The notes below the pieces were generated by a model. The model searched no databases, had not been told where the DNA came from, and saw nothing but the letters and a program-made list of their open reading frames with translations. A stretch of 37,234 nucleotides of DNA from Peptococcaceae bacterium (GTDB taxonomy: Bacteria > Bacillota > Desulfitobacteriia > Desulfitobacteriales > Syntrophobotulaceae), in contig JAAYUV010000005.1 of NCBI GenBank assembly GCA_012517475.1, forward strand, positions 1-37,234. The letters are read 5' to 3'. Positions 20,782 through 36,190 of the stretch are shown here, in pieces. A program made the position numbers and the translations under genes. Each line of letters starts with the position of its first letter. The first letter of the stretch is position 1.

Positions 20782-22389
20782 TCATTGAGGCATGGATTTC
20801 ATTCTTTGCAGTAGCAAATGATATCTTTCATCCAGGGCCTTGTACTCGGATGGGATAATCATGGGATCGGAAAGTCTGCCTATAATTTCAGACAGTTCAT
20901 TTTGAATAAGAAGAAGCTCTTCCTGCCGTATATGCCCAGATCTTCTTTCCCGCTGCTCAAGTTCATCCAAATAATCCGAATATCCACCCTCAAAAGTGTG
21001 GAGCTGCTTGTCTCGGAAGGTGATGATCCGGTCCGCGGTGTTCTCTAAAAACCTTCGGTCATGGGAGACAAAAAGAATAGTCCCGGGATATTCATGGATG
21101 AGTTTATCCAGTGCTTCTCTGGAGCGAAGATCCAAAAAATTATCCGGTTCATCCAAAAGCAGAAGATTAGGACCTTCGGCAAGAATCTTAGCCAAAGTGG
21201 CTTTAACAATTTCGCCCCCGCTTAATAATCCGATGTTTTTATGGACACTGTCTCCCTTAAAGTTGAGCCGGCTGAGGATAATTCGGATTCCGGCCTCACT
21301 TAAGAGGCTTTTTTCACGGACATTTTGCAAAATGGTTTTTTCTTTATCCAGGATGTCAAGTTTTTGGCTAAAGTACCCCGGGATCAGACCGTTGGCGAAA
21401 GTGACTGCGGGATCGCCCGAAAACAGCGCCTTTAACAAGGTAGTCTTTCCCGTACCGTTTTCTCCGAGTAAAGCGGTTTTACTTCCGGTCGGCAAATGAA
21501 AATCCGACTTGTTAAGCAAAAGTTTATTTCTTGTTCTGAGTGTGAGTTCATGTACCTTCAGCGCACTTTTTCCTGTAATTTTCATGCAGGTCTGAAAATA
21601 TATCCGGATTTCCGGTTCGGAAACAGGCTTTTCTTTTACCTCCAATTTCTCCAGGCGGGTTTCCAGAGAATTGACCGATTGATGCAGTTTCTTTTGGATT
21701 TCTCCCGTACTCCTCTTATGGAGACGGGCTTCCGAATTGCCCATTCTTTTGGGGGTTTTGCGCAGCTGTTTTACGTTCTGCCTGCGTTCTTGAATTCTTG
21801 AGACAAGGCGTTCCCGTTCAGCCTGGTATTCGCTGTATTCCTTGTACGCGTTGATCCGTTCAAGCTCCTTGATCTTTTTATATTCGGCATAATTTCCGCT
21901 GTAAATATGAAATTGACCGTTGTCGATTTCCATGATTGTTGTGCAAAGACGATCAAGCAGTGTCCGGTCATGAGAGATAAGAAGAAGGGCTCCCGGGAAT
22001 GACGCCAATTTCTCTTCCACAAGTTGTATTCCGTTTAGATCCATACTGGTAGTTGGTTCATCGGCAAGAAGCAATCCGCAGTTTTTCTCCAGAGCGGTAA
22101 ACAGTTTTAAACGGCTTAGTTCACCTCCGCTCAGGTAGCTTGTTTTGGAACGTGCATCATAGTCTTGGATATCCAGTTGTTTCATATACGATAAGGAGGT
22201 GCGAAGTTCGACCTTCCCCTCATCAGGATGTATTTCCTGAGCCAGGATACCCATTAATGTTGATTTCCCGCAGCCATTGATTCCGACTAAGCCGATACGG
22301 TCCTGGTCATAAATCTTAAGGTCATCGATTTTAAAAAGAAGACGTTCGCCATAACTCTTTACAATGTTTTGGGCATGCAAGATAAGCAT
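20782..22389 (-). CDS. ABC-F ATPase, ribosomal-protection type
   Basis: The 535-residue cytosolic protein has two ABC ATPase domains and no membrane segments. Domain 1 has Walker A GINGCGKST, signature LSGGELSRLK and Walker B-region LLADEPTTSMD. Domain 2 has GENGTGKTT, LSGGEIVKA and LLLLDEPDNFLD. The charged linker between them (RIQERRQNVKQLRKTPKRMG) is the arm that enters the ribosomal exit-site region in antibiotic-resistance ABC-F proteins (Vga/Lsa/VmlR group). The DEPTTSMD sequence and size fit this group better than housekeeping EttA. The likely role is protection from drugs such as lincosamides, streptogramin A or pleuromutilins; the drug spectrum is not readable. Its start codon directly follows a terminator-like hairpin. 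Confidence 0.85.
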   Translation of the reverse strand: MLILHAQNIVKSYGERLLFKIDDLKIYDQDRIGLVGINGCGKSTLMGILAQEIHPDEGKVELRTSLSYMKQLDIQDYDARSKTSYLSGGELSRLKLFTALEKNCGLLLADEPTTSMDLNGIQLVEEKLASFPGALLLISHDRTLLDRLCTTIMEIDNGQFHIYSGNYAEYKKIKELERINAYKEYSEYQAERERLVSRIQERRQNVKQLRKTPKRMGNSEARLHKRSTGEIQKKLHQSVNSLETRLEKLEVKEKPVSEPEIRIYFQTCMKITGKSALKVHELTLRTRNKLLLNKSDFHLPTGSKTALLGENGTGKTTLLKALFSGDPAVTFANGLIPGYFSQKLDILDKEKTILQNVREKSLLSEAGIRIILSRLNFKGDSVHKNIGLLSGGEIVKATLAKILAEGPNLLLLDEPDNFLDLRSREALDKLIHEYPGTILFVSHDRRFLENTADRIITFRDKQLHTFEGGYSDYLDELEQRERRSGHIRQEELLLIQNELSEIIGRLSDPMIIPSEYKALDERYHLLLQRMKSMPQ

Positions 22390-22417
22390 AAAAAAACCTC
22401 CCCTGGTTCCGGAGAGG
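22390..22417 (-). promoter_or_regulatory. Terminator/SD hairpin before ABC-F gene (candidate attenuator)
   Basis: On the minus strand CCTCTCC pairs with GGGGAGG (one G-U pair) around GGAACCA, then seven T, then the ATG. The downstream arm GGGGAGG is also the Shine-Dalgarno sequence, exactly seven bases from the start. When formed, the hairpin would end transcription and hide the ribosome binding site. This is a plausible attenuator as known for vmlR/lsa-type genes. Confidence 0.75.
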
Positions 22418-22466
22418 AATATTTGCTAATTAACATCAACGCATTTTGAAGAAAGATAATACACCT

Positions 22467-22523
22467 TTAATTCAATAGCATTTTTTTCCACGGAACATTC
22501 ACTGAAATGGAGTAGGATACCAT
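22467..22523 (-). CDS. Possible 18-codon leader peptide of ABC-F gene
   Basis: An ATG at 22523 opens a short frame, MVSYSISVNVPWKKMLLN, ending 50 bases before the attenuator hairpin. Leader peptides on which drug-stalled ribosomes change RNA folding are known upstream of such genes. There is no strong Shine-Dalgarno sequence, so this is tentative. GAAATGG and CCATTTC (22504-22526) form a stem around its first codons. Confidence 0.25.
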   Translation of the reverse strand: MVSYSISVNVPWKKMLLN

Positions 22524-22585
22524 TTCAAAAAATAATGCATCTGGTGTTTTTACCCTTATTCAATTGCAGCTTACGGAATCAGCCA

Positions 22586-22678
22586 AGAAATAACCCAATC
22601 CGGAACAACGCAAAGATACAAGTTGTATCAACTTGTTACAAGGTCGTGTTGTTACTGTTTCACGGATTAGTTATTTCT
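22586..22678. repeat. 93-bp imperfect inverted repeat
   Basis: AGAAATAAC then AATCCG on the left mirror CGGATT then GTTATTTCT on the right. GATACAA-G-TTGTATC forms a further small hairpin inside. No coding potential. It lies between the exporter operon's 3' end and the ABC-F leader. Confidence 0.5.
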
Positions 22679-22743
22679 CATGTTACCTTTTGCAACCTCC
22701 TGCTTCAATTACAATCTTAGTGTAGAGGGAGAATGAAATAAAA

Positions 22744-23847
22744 TCAAGGGGTTAAGGGAGCAATTTTCTTCCCTTCTTTAAGGCCGTCCAGTTTCGGATT
22801 CAGAATAACCACCATGCCTTCTTCAAGTCCCTCGCTGATTGCCACATTCCTATCGTTCTCAAAACCCTTTTTTACAGGACAAATTGCTGCCTTGCCATTT
22901 TTGACCACCCAAAGAGCATCCCCGTTATTGTAAGGGAACAAAGCTGTCTTGGGAACGACAAGCTGGTTTTCAGCCTTGTCCAGGGTAAATTCCACATCCA
23001 GGGCATAGCCCGGTTTAAGAACCAGACCTTCAGGAATTTCAGGAATGATGGTTACTTTGAGGCGCTGTTCCACCAAGCCCAGGGTAGAGAGCTTTTCTAC
23101 GGCAGAAGGAGCGATCCGGTCCACTTTTCCGGAAAAAATCACGTTCCCGCTCTTGTTATTCTGGATTAATCTGACAGGCATTTTGGGCTGAATACGGGAG
23201 GCGTCTTCCGTAAGGACAAAAACTTCAACGGTAAAAGTATTTCCGCTGATAACCGACATCAAAGGGGCTCCCTGGGTAACAACCATTCCTTCTTTGATTT
23301 CGAGATTGGCTATTGTACCGGCTGCCGGGGAAGTGGCATTTCGCTGGGAGATCTGATATTTCAGCTGGTTAATCTGCTCTTTGACTACGGATATCAGTGC
23401 GGGATAATAATCGGAGTTAACGGTATTGGCAGCTTCTTCGTATTCTTTTTTGCTCAGCACTCCGGCATCATACAACAACTTTTTTGTCTCCAGGTCAATC
23501 GTCAGTTGCTGCAGGTCTTTTTGGGCTTCAATACTGCGCATCTGTGCCTGGAGGCTTTGGATCTGATAGCTTAATTCCTGATTGTCAATGCTGACGAGTA
23601 AATCACCTTGTTGAACGACGTCACCTTCCCGGACAGGGATACCGGTAATTTTGCCCCCGTAAACAGAATAGACCTTGGATTCTTTCTCAGCTCTGACAAT
23701 CCCTTCTTCTTTAAAGGTTTTGGCAATACTATCTTTTTTCACCGTCAGGAGTCCCGCTTGGAGAGGTCGGGTAAACTGAAAGATTGTGATGCTGAGGATT
23801 GCGATTAGGACCAAGGCTCCAAGGATTATTTTCCATTTCCATTTCAT
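22744..23847 (-). CDS. HlyD/MacA/YknX-like membrane-fusion adaptor
   Basis: The 367-residue protein has one N-terminal membrane anchor (residues 6-25), then a split lipoyl domain (GKITGIPVREGDVVQQGDLL and later PAAGTIANLEIKEGMVV), a helical hairpin between them (QIQSLQAQMRSIEAQKDL) and beta-barrel regions. This is the adaptor of MacAB/YknXYZ-type export systems. In a Gram-positive cell it would sit on the outer face of the membrane and assist the FtsX-type permease. GGGAGG lies upstream of the ATG, 17 bases after the permease gene. No clear terminator follows. Confidence 0.88.
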   Translation of the reverse strand: MKWKWKIILGALVLIAILSITIFQFTRPLQAGLLTVKKDSIAKTFKEEGIVRAEKESKVYSVYGGKITGIPVREGDVVQQGDLLVSIDNQELSYQIQSLQAQMRSIEAQKDLQQLTIDLETKKLLYDAGVLSKKEYEEAANTVNSDYYPALISVVKEQINQLKYQISQRNATSPAAGTIANLEIKEGMVVTQGAPLMSVISGNTFTVEVFVLTEDASRIQPKMPVRLIQNNKSGNVIFSGKVDRIAPSAVEKLSTLGLVEQRLKVTIIPEIPEGLVLKPGYALDVEFTLDKAENQLVVPKTALFPYNNGDALWVVKNGKAAICPVKKGFENDRNVAISEGLEEGMVVILNPKLDGLKEGKKIAPLTP

Positions 23848-23864
23848 TTTCTTTTTCCTCCCTG

Positions 23865-26231
23865 TTACTCTCTTGATTTGAGGACTTCAACCAAACTGAG
23901 GTTTCGCAGTTTACGGGCAGCCATTTTCTGAGCAAACAAAATGCTTAATATTGAAATGATCAGGGCCAAAAGTAAGGCTTCAAGATTCAACTCAGGGGTA
24001 AAGCCAAAGACATCGTTACCGACTGAATCCGCCATTCCGACCAGGAAAGCTTTGGTTAAAGGAATTCCGGCCAGGATTCCGAAAATGCTGACAAACCATT
24101 GTTCAAAAGTGATCACAGCAAGGACTTCCTGGGGCGTCATACCCAGAACCATCATGGATGCAAGTTCCCGGCTTCGTTCCGAAAGGGTGATGACGGACGT
24201 ATTGTAAATAATGGCAAAACCGATGATAATACCGAAGATGAACATGCTGTAAATCATCCCCATATAGGAGGCCATTAATTCCTGCATCTTCCTGAGCATG
24301 CTAAGGCGGTTCTCGATCCCATTGATCATCTTGCTGTCATTGTATTTTTCTTTTAGAACCGGAATGCTGCCCTCTTCCACACTGAGCATAATGGAGGTGG
24401 CGAGTTTACCCTGCCCCAGAAAATCCTGCAAAGCGGAAATTTCCATGTAAGCATTCGTTCCCATGTTTTGGGGGATAACACCGATTACGGGCAAAACTCT
24501 TCGTTCGTCAGGCTTTTGAAAATAAGGGCTTTCCACAGTCAGCAAAGTACCCGGTTCGGCCTGGAGTTGATCAGCCAGCCGCTTTGAGATCAAGACTCCG
24601 TTTTTGGGGGGGGCAGCGGAATTCCCCTTGCTGTCTGTGATATGGTAAAGGTCACTGTCTGATCGAATACCGAGTAAGACGACCCCTTTTTCATGCCAGG
24701 AATGATGCAAGGTTACCGGTATTTCCGCCATGGTTTCAACCACTCTGACGCCTGGGAAACCGGAGAGTTCCCGTTCTGCTTGATTTTGCGGGAGGGGGCC
24801 GGCCAAGGGGATTTTTACGTCATATGTTTCAATTTTCTCAAATTGGTCAAAGAGCATGACGTCACTCAGTTTTTTAAATGACCAGGGAAGAGCTAACAAG
24901 CTAAAGGTAAACATAATCCCGATAAAAAGGAAGGCGGTCCGCATCTTATTCCGGAGCATGCTGCGGAGAGCCATCTTGCCCTGGACTGTGAGCATTTGCC
25001 AGAAGAAAACAGCCTTTTCCAGGATGACATTTTTGCCGGAAGGGGGCGCGGCCGGGCGCATGGCTTCAGCGGCTTCCAATTTTAAGATGTTTTTGCAGCC
25101 CTGATAACCCGCCGCCAGAGAAAATAGTAGCGCTAAAGCCAGACTGAGGAAGAAATAAGCGTAGGAAAATTCCGGTTCAAGCCCGGGCATATTATAATAC
25201 TGCCGATATATATCCAGGTATGGTCCTGTCAGGGCAAATCCGCTTAAACCGCCCAGAATACCTCCGATCAGACCTGTGACAAGGGCGTAGGACAGATAGT
25301 GGAAGAGGATTTCTTTATTGGTATACCCAAAGGCTTTGAGGGTGCCAAGCTGAGTTCGCTGCAGCTCAATCATTCGTTTGAACATAATATAGAGGATCAT
25401 CGCCGCCACGGACAGAAAAATAACGGGCATGGTTTTGGCAGTGGCCTTAAGGCTGCTCAGTTCCTGAGCCAGCAAAACATCGCTGGTCTGATCTTTTCGC
25501 GGGTAAATACTTTTTAACCCATAGGGTTTAAGCTCAGATTCCAAAAGAGGTTTCACATCATCAAAACTTTTGCCTGTCTGAATGGTAAAAACCAGGTTCG
25601 TAACAGAGGACTCTGACAAAAAGAGATTTTTCATAACGGAAAGGGGAACATATCCGATTCCGAATGTCTCGGGGGTAGGCATAAGATCGCTGGTTGTACG
25701 CATAGCGTAAATAAATTCAGGATTTTTCCCTGTGCCTGTTACGTGGAAGGTTTTCTTTTTCCCGTCGGCAATGATCTGGATTTCCTGGTTAAGTTCCAGG
25801 TGGTTGGCTTCAAAAAACTTATTGTCTACCCAAAGATTCATAATGCCGTCTTCCAGCGCGATCCCTTTTTCCAGGAGGACATCATTAATCAGGGATGATT
25901 GGGAAGTATCGACAGATACGAGACGAAGATAGACATTATCCTGGCGATCCGGCATAACAACCCGGACATCTTTGATCAAGCGGCCCTGGATCTGTTTAAT
26001 TCCATCGACCTCACCTAAGCGCGCAACCTGGCTGTAAGGTATTCCTTCCACTTCGGCAAAACCATCGGCAAAATTTTGGCTTTTATAGAAAGAATCCCTT
26101 GATAACAGGAGATTATCCATGACCATAGACATAGAGGAATAAACCATTAAACCTATGGCGATGACAATAATGCAAGCGGTATAGGCACCCTTTTGCTGCA
26201 TAAGGTCGCGGCGCATTTTCCTGAACAGCAT
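23865..26231 (-). CDS. FtsX-family ABC permease
   Basis: The 788-residue permease has an N-terminal helix (about 15-38), a large extracytoplasmic domain, three helices near 260-380 (with QRTQLGTLKAFGYTNKEIL, the coupling motif of FtsX domains), another helix near 430, a second extracytoplasmic domain, and a final FtsX domain (ERSRELASMMVLGMTPQEVL) with three helices. This double-FtsX plan matches large Gram-positive exporters of antimicrobial peptides or lipids. The ATG at 26231 overlaps the ATPase stop as TAATG with AAGGTG upstream; a TTG two codons earlier is less likely. It works with the ATPase and adaptor on either side. Substrate unknown. Confidence 0.88.
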   Translation of the reverse strand: MLFRKMRRDLMQQKGAYTACIIVIAIGLMVYSSMSMVMDNLLLSRDSFYKSQNFADGFAEVEGIPYSQVARLGEVDGIKQIQGRLIKDVRVVMPDRQDNVYLRLVSVDTSQSSLINDVLLEKGIALEDGIMNLWVDNKFFEANHLELNQEIQIIADGKKKTFHVTGTGKNPEFIYAMRTTSDLMPTPETFGIGYVPLSVMKNLFLSESSVTNLVFTIQTGKSFDDVKPLLESELKPYGLKSIYPRKDQTSDVLLAQELSSLKATAKTMPVIFLSVAAMILYIMFKRMIELQRTQLGTLKAFGYTNKEILFHYLSYALVTGLIGGILGGLSGFALTGPYLDIYRQYYNMPGLEPEFSYAYFFLSLALALLFSLAAGYQGCKNILKLEAAEAMRPAAPPSGKNVILEKAVFFWQMLTVQGKMALRSMLRNKMRTAFLFIGIMFTFSLLALPWSFKKLSDVMLFDQFEKIETYDVKIPLAGPLPQNQAERELSGFPGVRVVETMAEIPVTLHHSWHEKGVVLLGIRSDSDLYHITDSKGNSAAPPKNGVLISKRLADQLQAEPGTLLTVESPYFQKPDERRVLPVIGVIPQNMGTNAYMEISALQDFLGQGKLATSIMLSVEEGSIPVLKEKYNDSKMINGIENRLSMLRKMQELMASYMGMIYSMFIFGIIIGFAIIYNTSVITLSERSRELASMMVLGMTPQEVLAVITFEQWFVSIFGILAGIPLTKAFLVGMADSVGNDVFGFTPELNLEALLLALIISILSILFAQKMAARKLRNLSLVEVLKSRE

Positions 26232-26935
26232 TACCAAGTCACCTTCTCCGGAGATATTGGATGTTCATTCACTAAGATACGGGAAATTCCGCCGTCTTTG
26301 ATATAAAAAACCCGGTCGGCGATGGCAGCAACCCCGGCGTTATGGGTAATAATGATCACAGTCTTGTGATAATTTTCATGAAAATCCTTTAAGATTTTAA
26401 GTACCTGAATACTCGTTTGAGAATCGAGCGCCCCGGTGGGCTCATCACAGAGCAGGAGTTCAGGATTCTTTACAATGGCCCTGGCCAAGGCGATACGCTG
26501 CTGTTCGCCCCCGCTTAATTGGGAAGGGAAATGGTCTGCTCGTTCCGCCAGGCCTACCTTGCTAAGCATTTCTCCGACATCAAGAGGGTTTTGAGCGATT
26601 TCAGCAGAAAGACTGACATTTTCAGAGGCGTTAAGATTAGGGATCAGATTATAAAACTGAAAAACGAAACCTACTGCGTTCCGGCGGTATAAGGTCAGTT
26701 GTTTGGAATCGGCCGTATGCAAGGGAGTGTCTTTATAATAGAGTTCACCTGCAGAAGCGCGGTCCATTCCTCCGACCATATTTAACAGAGTGCTTTTCCC
26801 GGAACCGCTTGGCCCGAGGATTACAATAAATTCGTTGTCATAAATTTCAAAATCCACGTTATGCAAGGCTTTAACTTCTACCTCGCCCATCTGGTATGTT
26901 TTAGAGAGAGCATGTGCCCTTATTAACGGGTTCAT
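26231..26935 (-). CDS. ABC transporter ATPase, MacB/LolD type
   Basis: The 234-residue ATPase has Walker [11 protein letters not shown]-loop [17 protein letters not shown], signature [14 protein letters not shown], Walker [13 protein letters not shown] and switch ITHN. The sequence around the Q-loop and the GALD ending are typical of the LolD/MacB/FtsE class that drives FtsX-like permeases. It begins inside the stop codon of the TetR gene (ATGA) and runs into the permease, so regulator, ATPase and permease are translationally chained. Confidence 0.93.
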
Positions 26936-27567
26936 TTTCTTACCCCTCTCTGTTTAATCTTACCTTGGAAAAAGAGCGCGATTTGCCGGGTAATGCCTTC
27001 CTGCATCTCGTGGTAAGATATACTTTCGTCAATGATATAAAAGAGGCATTGGGTTGTAATAATACTGTAAACACAGAAAGCTGCGTCATGTGGTTCGAAA
27101 TCAGAGGAAAACAGCCCTTTTTCCTTATAGGCATCAAGAATTTTGGCCAGGAAATCGACAAAGCCAAATTTATTGGTCTTATAAAGGTGTCCGAGTTCGG
27201 GGTGTTTGGAAACACCGTCCAGAGACACGGTTAAAAGGTCAAGCAAAGTATTTTTTTCAAATTTATAATACGGTTCCAGGTAGACATCAATAATCTTAGT
27301 AATGGTTAAGACAGGGTCTTCTCCGTGCTTTCGGATTACCTGGTCCAATCTTTCCTGAGGATTGCCCATTTCGCGGAAGTAGCTTTCTATATATAACAGG
27401 GCTTTGGAGGGAAAATAATTATAGAGAGTACCCACCCCAATATTAGCCCGTTCCGCAATCGTTGTGATTGTCGTTTCTTCAAAGCCGTCGGTTAAAAAAC
27501 AATCTTTAGCCGCTTCTATAATTCTTTTGCGGAGGGCTTCTTTTTTTCTTTCCCTTACCCCTGACAT
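26932..27567 (-). CDS. TetR/AcrR-family repressor
   Basis: The 211-residue protein has a TetR DNA-binding domain in residues 10-60: RIIEAAKDCFLTDGFEETTI, TTIAERANIGVGTLYNYFPS. The rest is a helical ligand-binding domain I cannot assign to a ligand. GGAG lies about eight bases before the ATG. It is the first gene of the exporter operon and probably represses it through the tandem TGAAC-type palindromes at 27694-27725, relieved by the exported compound. Confidence 0.9.
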   Translation of the reverse strand: MSGVRERKKEALRKRIIEAAKDCFLTDGFEETTITTIAERANIGVGTLYNYFPSKALLYIESYFREMGNPQERLDQVIRKHGEDPVLTITKIIDVYLEPYYKFEKNTLLDLLTVSLDGVSKHPELGHLYKTNKFGFVDFLAKILDAYKEKGLFSSDFEPHDAAFCVYSIITTQCLFYIIDESISYHEMQEGITRQIALFFQGKIKQRGVRK

Positions 27568-36028: not shown

Positions 36029-36190
36029 GTGCGCCAAGCAAAGCTTGGTACTTCTTGCAAGGTGAAAGTCCTTGCTGGGCAAGGTCTAGCCAACCACCCA
36101 TATCGCGTGTTGCGCCGAAACTGGTAACAGCAAGGTGAAGTGTACACAGAGAACCATATAGGCCATAGGGGGAACCGTAACTCCTGAAGC
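36029..36190 (+). mobile_element. Group II intron 5' fragment (domain I)
   Basis: GTGCGCC at 36029 is the conserved 5' end of bacterial group II introns. It is followed in order by AAGCTTGGTA, AAGGTGAAAGTCCTT, GGTCTAGCCAACCAC and CAAGGTGAAGTGTACA, then ATAGGCCATAGGGGGAACCG, the usual run of domain I. Homology fades before 36200. No reverse transcriptase/maturase frame and no domain V follow, so this is a truncated, inactive copy. Its right edge abuts the next small gene. Confidence 0.75.

Follow-up and report, generated by a model that had tools for sequence, protein, structure and literature searches.

The question raised by this locus is how a Peptococcaceae bacterium controls a gene for an ABC-F protein, which would protect its ribosomes from antibiotics. 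We analyzed a window of 37,234 nucleotides, which is positions 1 to 37,234 of contig JAAYUV010000005.1 (assembly GCA_012517475.1). A previous reading of this DNA, made from the sequence only, proposed that a hairpin just before the start codon is both a transcription terminator and a lock on the Shine-Dalgarno (SD) sequence. The features of the gene and its leader are listed in Table 1.

Table 1. Features of the ABC-F gene and its leader in the window
Feature	Position	Strand	Basis or remark
Possible promoter TTGATT-17-TACACT, 8/12	22719..22747	-	Read by eye; weak
Possible SD of the uORF: AGGAGG and AAAGG, which precede its ATG by 14 and 4 nt, respectively	22686..22701	-	Sequence
Candidate sensor uORF, ATG AGA AAT AAC TAA (MRNN*)	22667..22681	-	Footprint simulation; comparable M(R/K/F)x frames in the leaders of relatives
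Segment 1, 5' arm of the anti-antiterminator, contains the uORF	22660..22680	-	Duplex energy and shuffles
Segment 2 (TGTTCCGGATTGGGTTATTTCTTG), strand common to both states: paired with segment 1 when repressed and with segment 3 when induced	22584..22607	-	Computed pairing
18-codon frame, probably not functional	22467..22523	-	No SD; footprint without effect
Segment 3 (AAATATTCCTCTCCGGAAC), the terminator's 5' arm plus loop; with segment 2, the antiterminator	22406..22424	-	Duplex energy and shuffles
Terminator hairpin, 3' arm GGGGAGG doubling as the SD	22397..22417	-	Sequence, terminator scan, folding, relatives
T-run TTTTTTT, terminator tail and SD-start spacer	22390..22396	-	Sequence, terminator scan
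ARE-type ABC-F ribosome-protection gene	20782..22389	-	535 aa, Vga/CplR-like, ARE1 group

As had been claimed, the gene is an ABC-F resistance gene, and it is of the ARE type: its protein scores 461.8 bits against NF000355 (ribosomal protection-like ABC-F, from NCBIfam), above the cut-off of 380. Among the curated models, those for Vga and CplR are the closest, and the protein reaches the cut-off of neither: it scores 524.2 bits for Vga (NF000170, cut-off 725 bits) and 510.7 bits for CplR (NF043038, cut-off 780 bits). It is therefore a CplR-like relative and not CplR. Matches in PADLOC were weak and were to other ATPases, so we rejected them. The best solved relative is 7nhl (7e-112), which is a lincosamide-streptogramin A resistance protein, so it is reasonable to infer that the protein acts against pleuromutilins, lincosamides, and streptogramin A. 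An efflux operon (22744-27567 on the minus strand), which encodes a TetR regulator, an ABC ATPase, an FtsX/MacB-type permease, and a HlyD-type fusion protein, lies directly upstream on the same strand. On the 3' side of the gene is a long near-perfect palindrome, TATAGAAGCTTTCATATACTGAAAGCTTCTATA (20741-20709, minus strand), which has no T-run.

The proposed hairpin is exactly as described. Read on the minus strand, the end of the leader consists of CCTCTCC (22417-22411), GGAACCA (22410-22404), GGGGAGG (22403-22397), TTTTTTT (22396-22390), and the ATG (22389). The stem has 7 base pairs, including one G-U pair, and a folding energy of -11.7 kcal/mol. A terminator scan recovers this hairpin, and 0.4 +/- 0.6 sites are expected in shuffled sequence; the scan's two hits at the leader are one hairpin in two registers. 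That the 3' arm is the ribosome binding site and the T-run its spacer, so that one stem could act on both transcription and translation, is supported by this anatomy, by comparison with relatives, and by the cplR gene of Clostridioides difficile (PMC10201436). The hairpin and its dual role are thus well supported. When we searched Rfam, the leader had matches at chance level only, and no curated family was found.

For the comparison with relatives, we took homologous genes (roughly 38-46% identity) from Bacillota genomes, which yielded 30 leaders from many families. (A scan of genome contigs gave only distant ABC-F proteins, at 26-31% identity, which are unsuitable for comparing leaders.) The SD core lies wholly within the terminator stem in 27 of the 30 leaders. 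It is nearly invariant, as expected for a binding site, and the outer positions of the stem vary: C-G, T-G, T-A, A-T, and G-C pairs are all seen. Across 398 Bacillota genomes, the hairpin in its commonest form has 10 matches, versus 0 for a reversed control, and all 10 are directly before an ABC-F reading frame. The double lock is a trait of the family, not a peculiarity of one species. Because a terminator whose 3' arm is the SD and whose T-run is the spacer is the rule across these genes, we found no support for the earlier description of the design as unusually compact.

We considered whether the hairpin might hide the SD but terminate poorly, since its stem is just 7 base pairs, which would leave control at translation only. 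The short stem with its G-U pair is consistent with this, and in C. difficile, a U-tract mutant was still regulated by translation attenuation alone (PMC10201436). However, seven uninterrupted T's follow the GC-rich stem immediately, nearly all of the relatives have five to seven T's at this place, and cplR transcripts in C. difficile end at the start codon (PMC10201436). We consider translation-only control to be unlikely.

The leader contains three segments that are predicted to pair in alternative ways. Segments 1 and 2 form a duplex (22680-22660 with 22605-22584) with an energy of -20.3 kcal/mol, and just 2 of 2,000 shuffles were as good. Segments 2 and 3 form another (22607-22587 with 22424-22406; -19.2 kcal/mol; 7 of 2,000 shuffles as good). 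Because segment 2 is common to both duplexes, the anti-antiterminator and the antiterminator exclude each other, and by computed pairing, the antiterminator is exclusive with both hairpins. These structures seem to be the mutually exclusive trio of a classical attenuator. The element reaches to about 22701, and not just to 22526 as had been thought. Two TTATTT stretches (22593-22588 and 22535-22530, minus strand) fit the NusG pause motif TTNTTT that was reported for vmlR.

A tiny upstream open reading frame (uORF), MRNN, which might be translated, lies inside the 5' arm of the long stem, some 290 nt ahead of the ABC-F start codon. Neither of its possible SD sequences (AGGAGG or AAAGG) is ideally spaced from its ATG; relatives carry RAGGGNAAGGTA at a similar place. 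An automated search for an SD plus a mini-ORF failed to pick up MRNN because of this unusual spacing. Transcription may start from the possible promoter in Table 1, which we grade as weak because its 8/12 matches are below the scan's threshold of 9/12.

To simulate a ribosome on the leader, we ran an unbiased scan in which a masked 32-nt footprint was moved along the sequence, and for each position we calculated how probable the terminator stem is. With the P site at about 22685-22655, this probability collapses from 0.99 to 0.00-0.02, and it is 0.11 with the P site at 22649. For every footprint outside of 22685-22649, it stays at 0.69-1.0. The interval that collapses the terminator covers MRNN. 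With 60 nt of coding sequence added to the fold, the probability drops no further than 0.17, and when the switch is simulated as induced, the main SD is still predicted to retain partial pairing (0.57-0.96) to an upstream sequence. For these two reasons, we are less sure that the SD is freed than that the terminator is lost.

The sequence-only reading had instead pointed to an 18-codon frame with its own stem as the upstream frame. Both are present: the frame is open and close to the hairpin, and the stem (TGAAATGG/CCATTTCA) is at 22527-22503. However, we found no SD for this frame in the sequence, it does not overlap segment 1 or segment 2, and a ribosome at its start or its stop leaves the probability of the terminator at 0.975-0.978. 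We rejected it as a candidate, and it is very unlikely to be the sensor. In the folding model, MRNN is most likely the sensor instead. The proposal of drug-induced attenuation therefore stands as to the kind of mechanism, given the anatomy, the comparison, and the proven case of cplR (PMC10201436), but not as to which frame senses the drug. In practice, this changes which short frame to mutate.

The relatives also point to tiny uORFs. Most of the homologous leaders contain a frame of two to four codons (M and then R, K, or F; variants include MRN, MRK, MFN, and MKN) that follows a RAGGGNAAGGTA-like stretch and is usually at the switching position. Masking these conserved-type uORFs reduced the probability of the terminator to a median of 0.26 of its free value; for the remaining tiny ATG frames, the figure was 1.0 (p 2.6e-8). 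We recognized the conserved class in the sequences before computing the effect of masking, and wrote its exact definition afterwards. The footprint scan over all homologous leaders used coarse steps, and in the folding model, three leaders (L117, L120, and L129) show little or no switching.

These conserved uORFs, along with the mutually exclusive long-range pairings, also argue against a simpler explanation: that the hairpin merely resembles a terminator, that drugs have no part in its regulation, and that the ABC-F gene is expressed by read-through from the efflux operon. The order of the genes, on the same strand, would allow this, and yet we consider it to be very unlikely.

Overall, the ABC-F gene is very probably under ribosome-mediated attenuation of the cplR/vmlR type. 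If no drug is present, then ribosomes would not linger on MRNN, segments 1 and 2 would pair, the terminator hairpin would form, and transcription would stop just ahead of the start codon; in any read-through RNA, the SD would be locked within the hairpin. In the presence of a drug (lincosamides, pleuromutilins, and streptogramin A are the likely inducers), a ribosome that stalls at or just after initiation on MRNN would mask segment 1. Segment 2 would then pair with segment 3, the terminator would not form, and the ABC-F protein would be made.

A combined lock of this kind was already established experimentally for cplR of C. difficile (CDIF630nc_084), which is induced by drugs and has a 212-nt leader, the uORF MRI, and an SD-sequestering terminator hairpin (PMC10201436). 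Mutants in the uORF, the stem, and the U tract showed that transcription attenuation and translation attenuation act together (PMC10201436). By comparison with the published description, the two loci share a short uORF in a 5' hairpin, an SD-sequestering terminator, an alternative antiterminator, and an ABC-F protein of the ARE1 type (PMC10201436). In the window, as in cplR-type leaders, the terminator hairpin sequesters the main SD with a U tract that reaches the start codon, and a very short candidate uORF is within the 5' hairpin (segment 1). The differences in the window are that the uORF has four codons (MRNN) rather than three and does not match the cplR-type consensus MR[I/M], that the leader is longer, and that the protein is outside of the named CplR and Vga groups. 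In vmlR of Bacillus subtilis, the uORF MIN is inside an anti-antiterminator stem, and there is an antiterminator and an intrinsic terminator, as in the window; but the terminator (SL-3) is separate from the SD-sequestering hairpin (SL-4), and the protein belongs to ARE2 (PMC9226507). Given these two precedents, the element in the window appears to belong to a known kind, of which it would be a further example. The leader of lmo0919/vgaL from Listeria monocytogenes, which was aligned with cplR in the cplR study, also has a short uORF and anti-SD elements (PMC10201436). In msrDL-msrD, a drug-stalled ribosome on a tiny uORF similarly prevents the terminator, but the stall peptide is drug specific, has six residues (MYLIFM), and responds to macrolides (PMC10314930). 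The window adds a clear and mechanistically readable case from a little-studied lineage of Bacillota.

Some of the relatives may have an additional lock. In nine of them (L003, L005, L006, L007, L114, L119, L120, L124, and L125), ATT stands at the codon aligned with Met1, a GGAGGGG-type SD precedes it by 5-6 nt (GGAGGGG-T5/6-ATT-TTA...), and neither this codon nor those directly beside it is ATG, GTG, or TTG. A protein tree places these nine together in a single group that also includes one member with ATG. The ABC-F genes of this clade appear to start with AUU, which would be a conserved noncanonical start on a resistance gene. In staphylococci, conserved AUU or AUA starts with an extended SD are reported to act as brakes on expression (PMC13009471); in a limited search of the literature, we found no report of AUU starts on ABC-F genes. 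We tentatively suggest, as a possibility that is less likely than not, that attenuators like this one are widespread in Bacillota, that the range of inducers is tuned by their tiny uORF (M followed by R, K, or F), and that in one clade, AUU adds a third lock to those of the terminator and the hidden SD.

A second ARE-type ABC-F gene of the same assembly is msr(D), which follows mef(A) (locus L175, G000:C91:57084-58529) and has a MYLIFM leader. This locus is 99.7% identical to a Phocaeicola plasmid, so it is either a recent transfer or on a contaminant contig (the assembly's contamination is 3.78%). Elsewhere in the window, positions 36065-36176 of the plus strand match a group II intron (Rfam RF02005, 60.3 bits).
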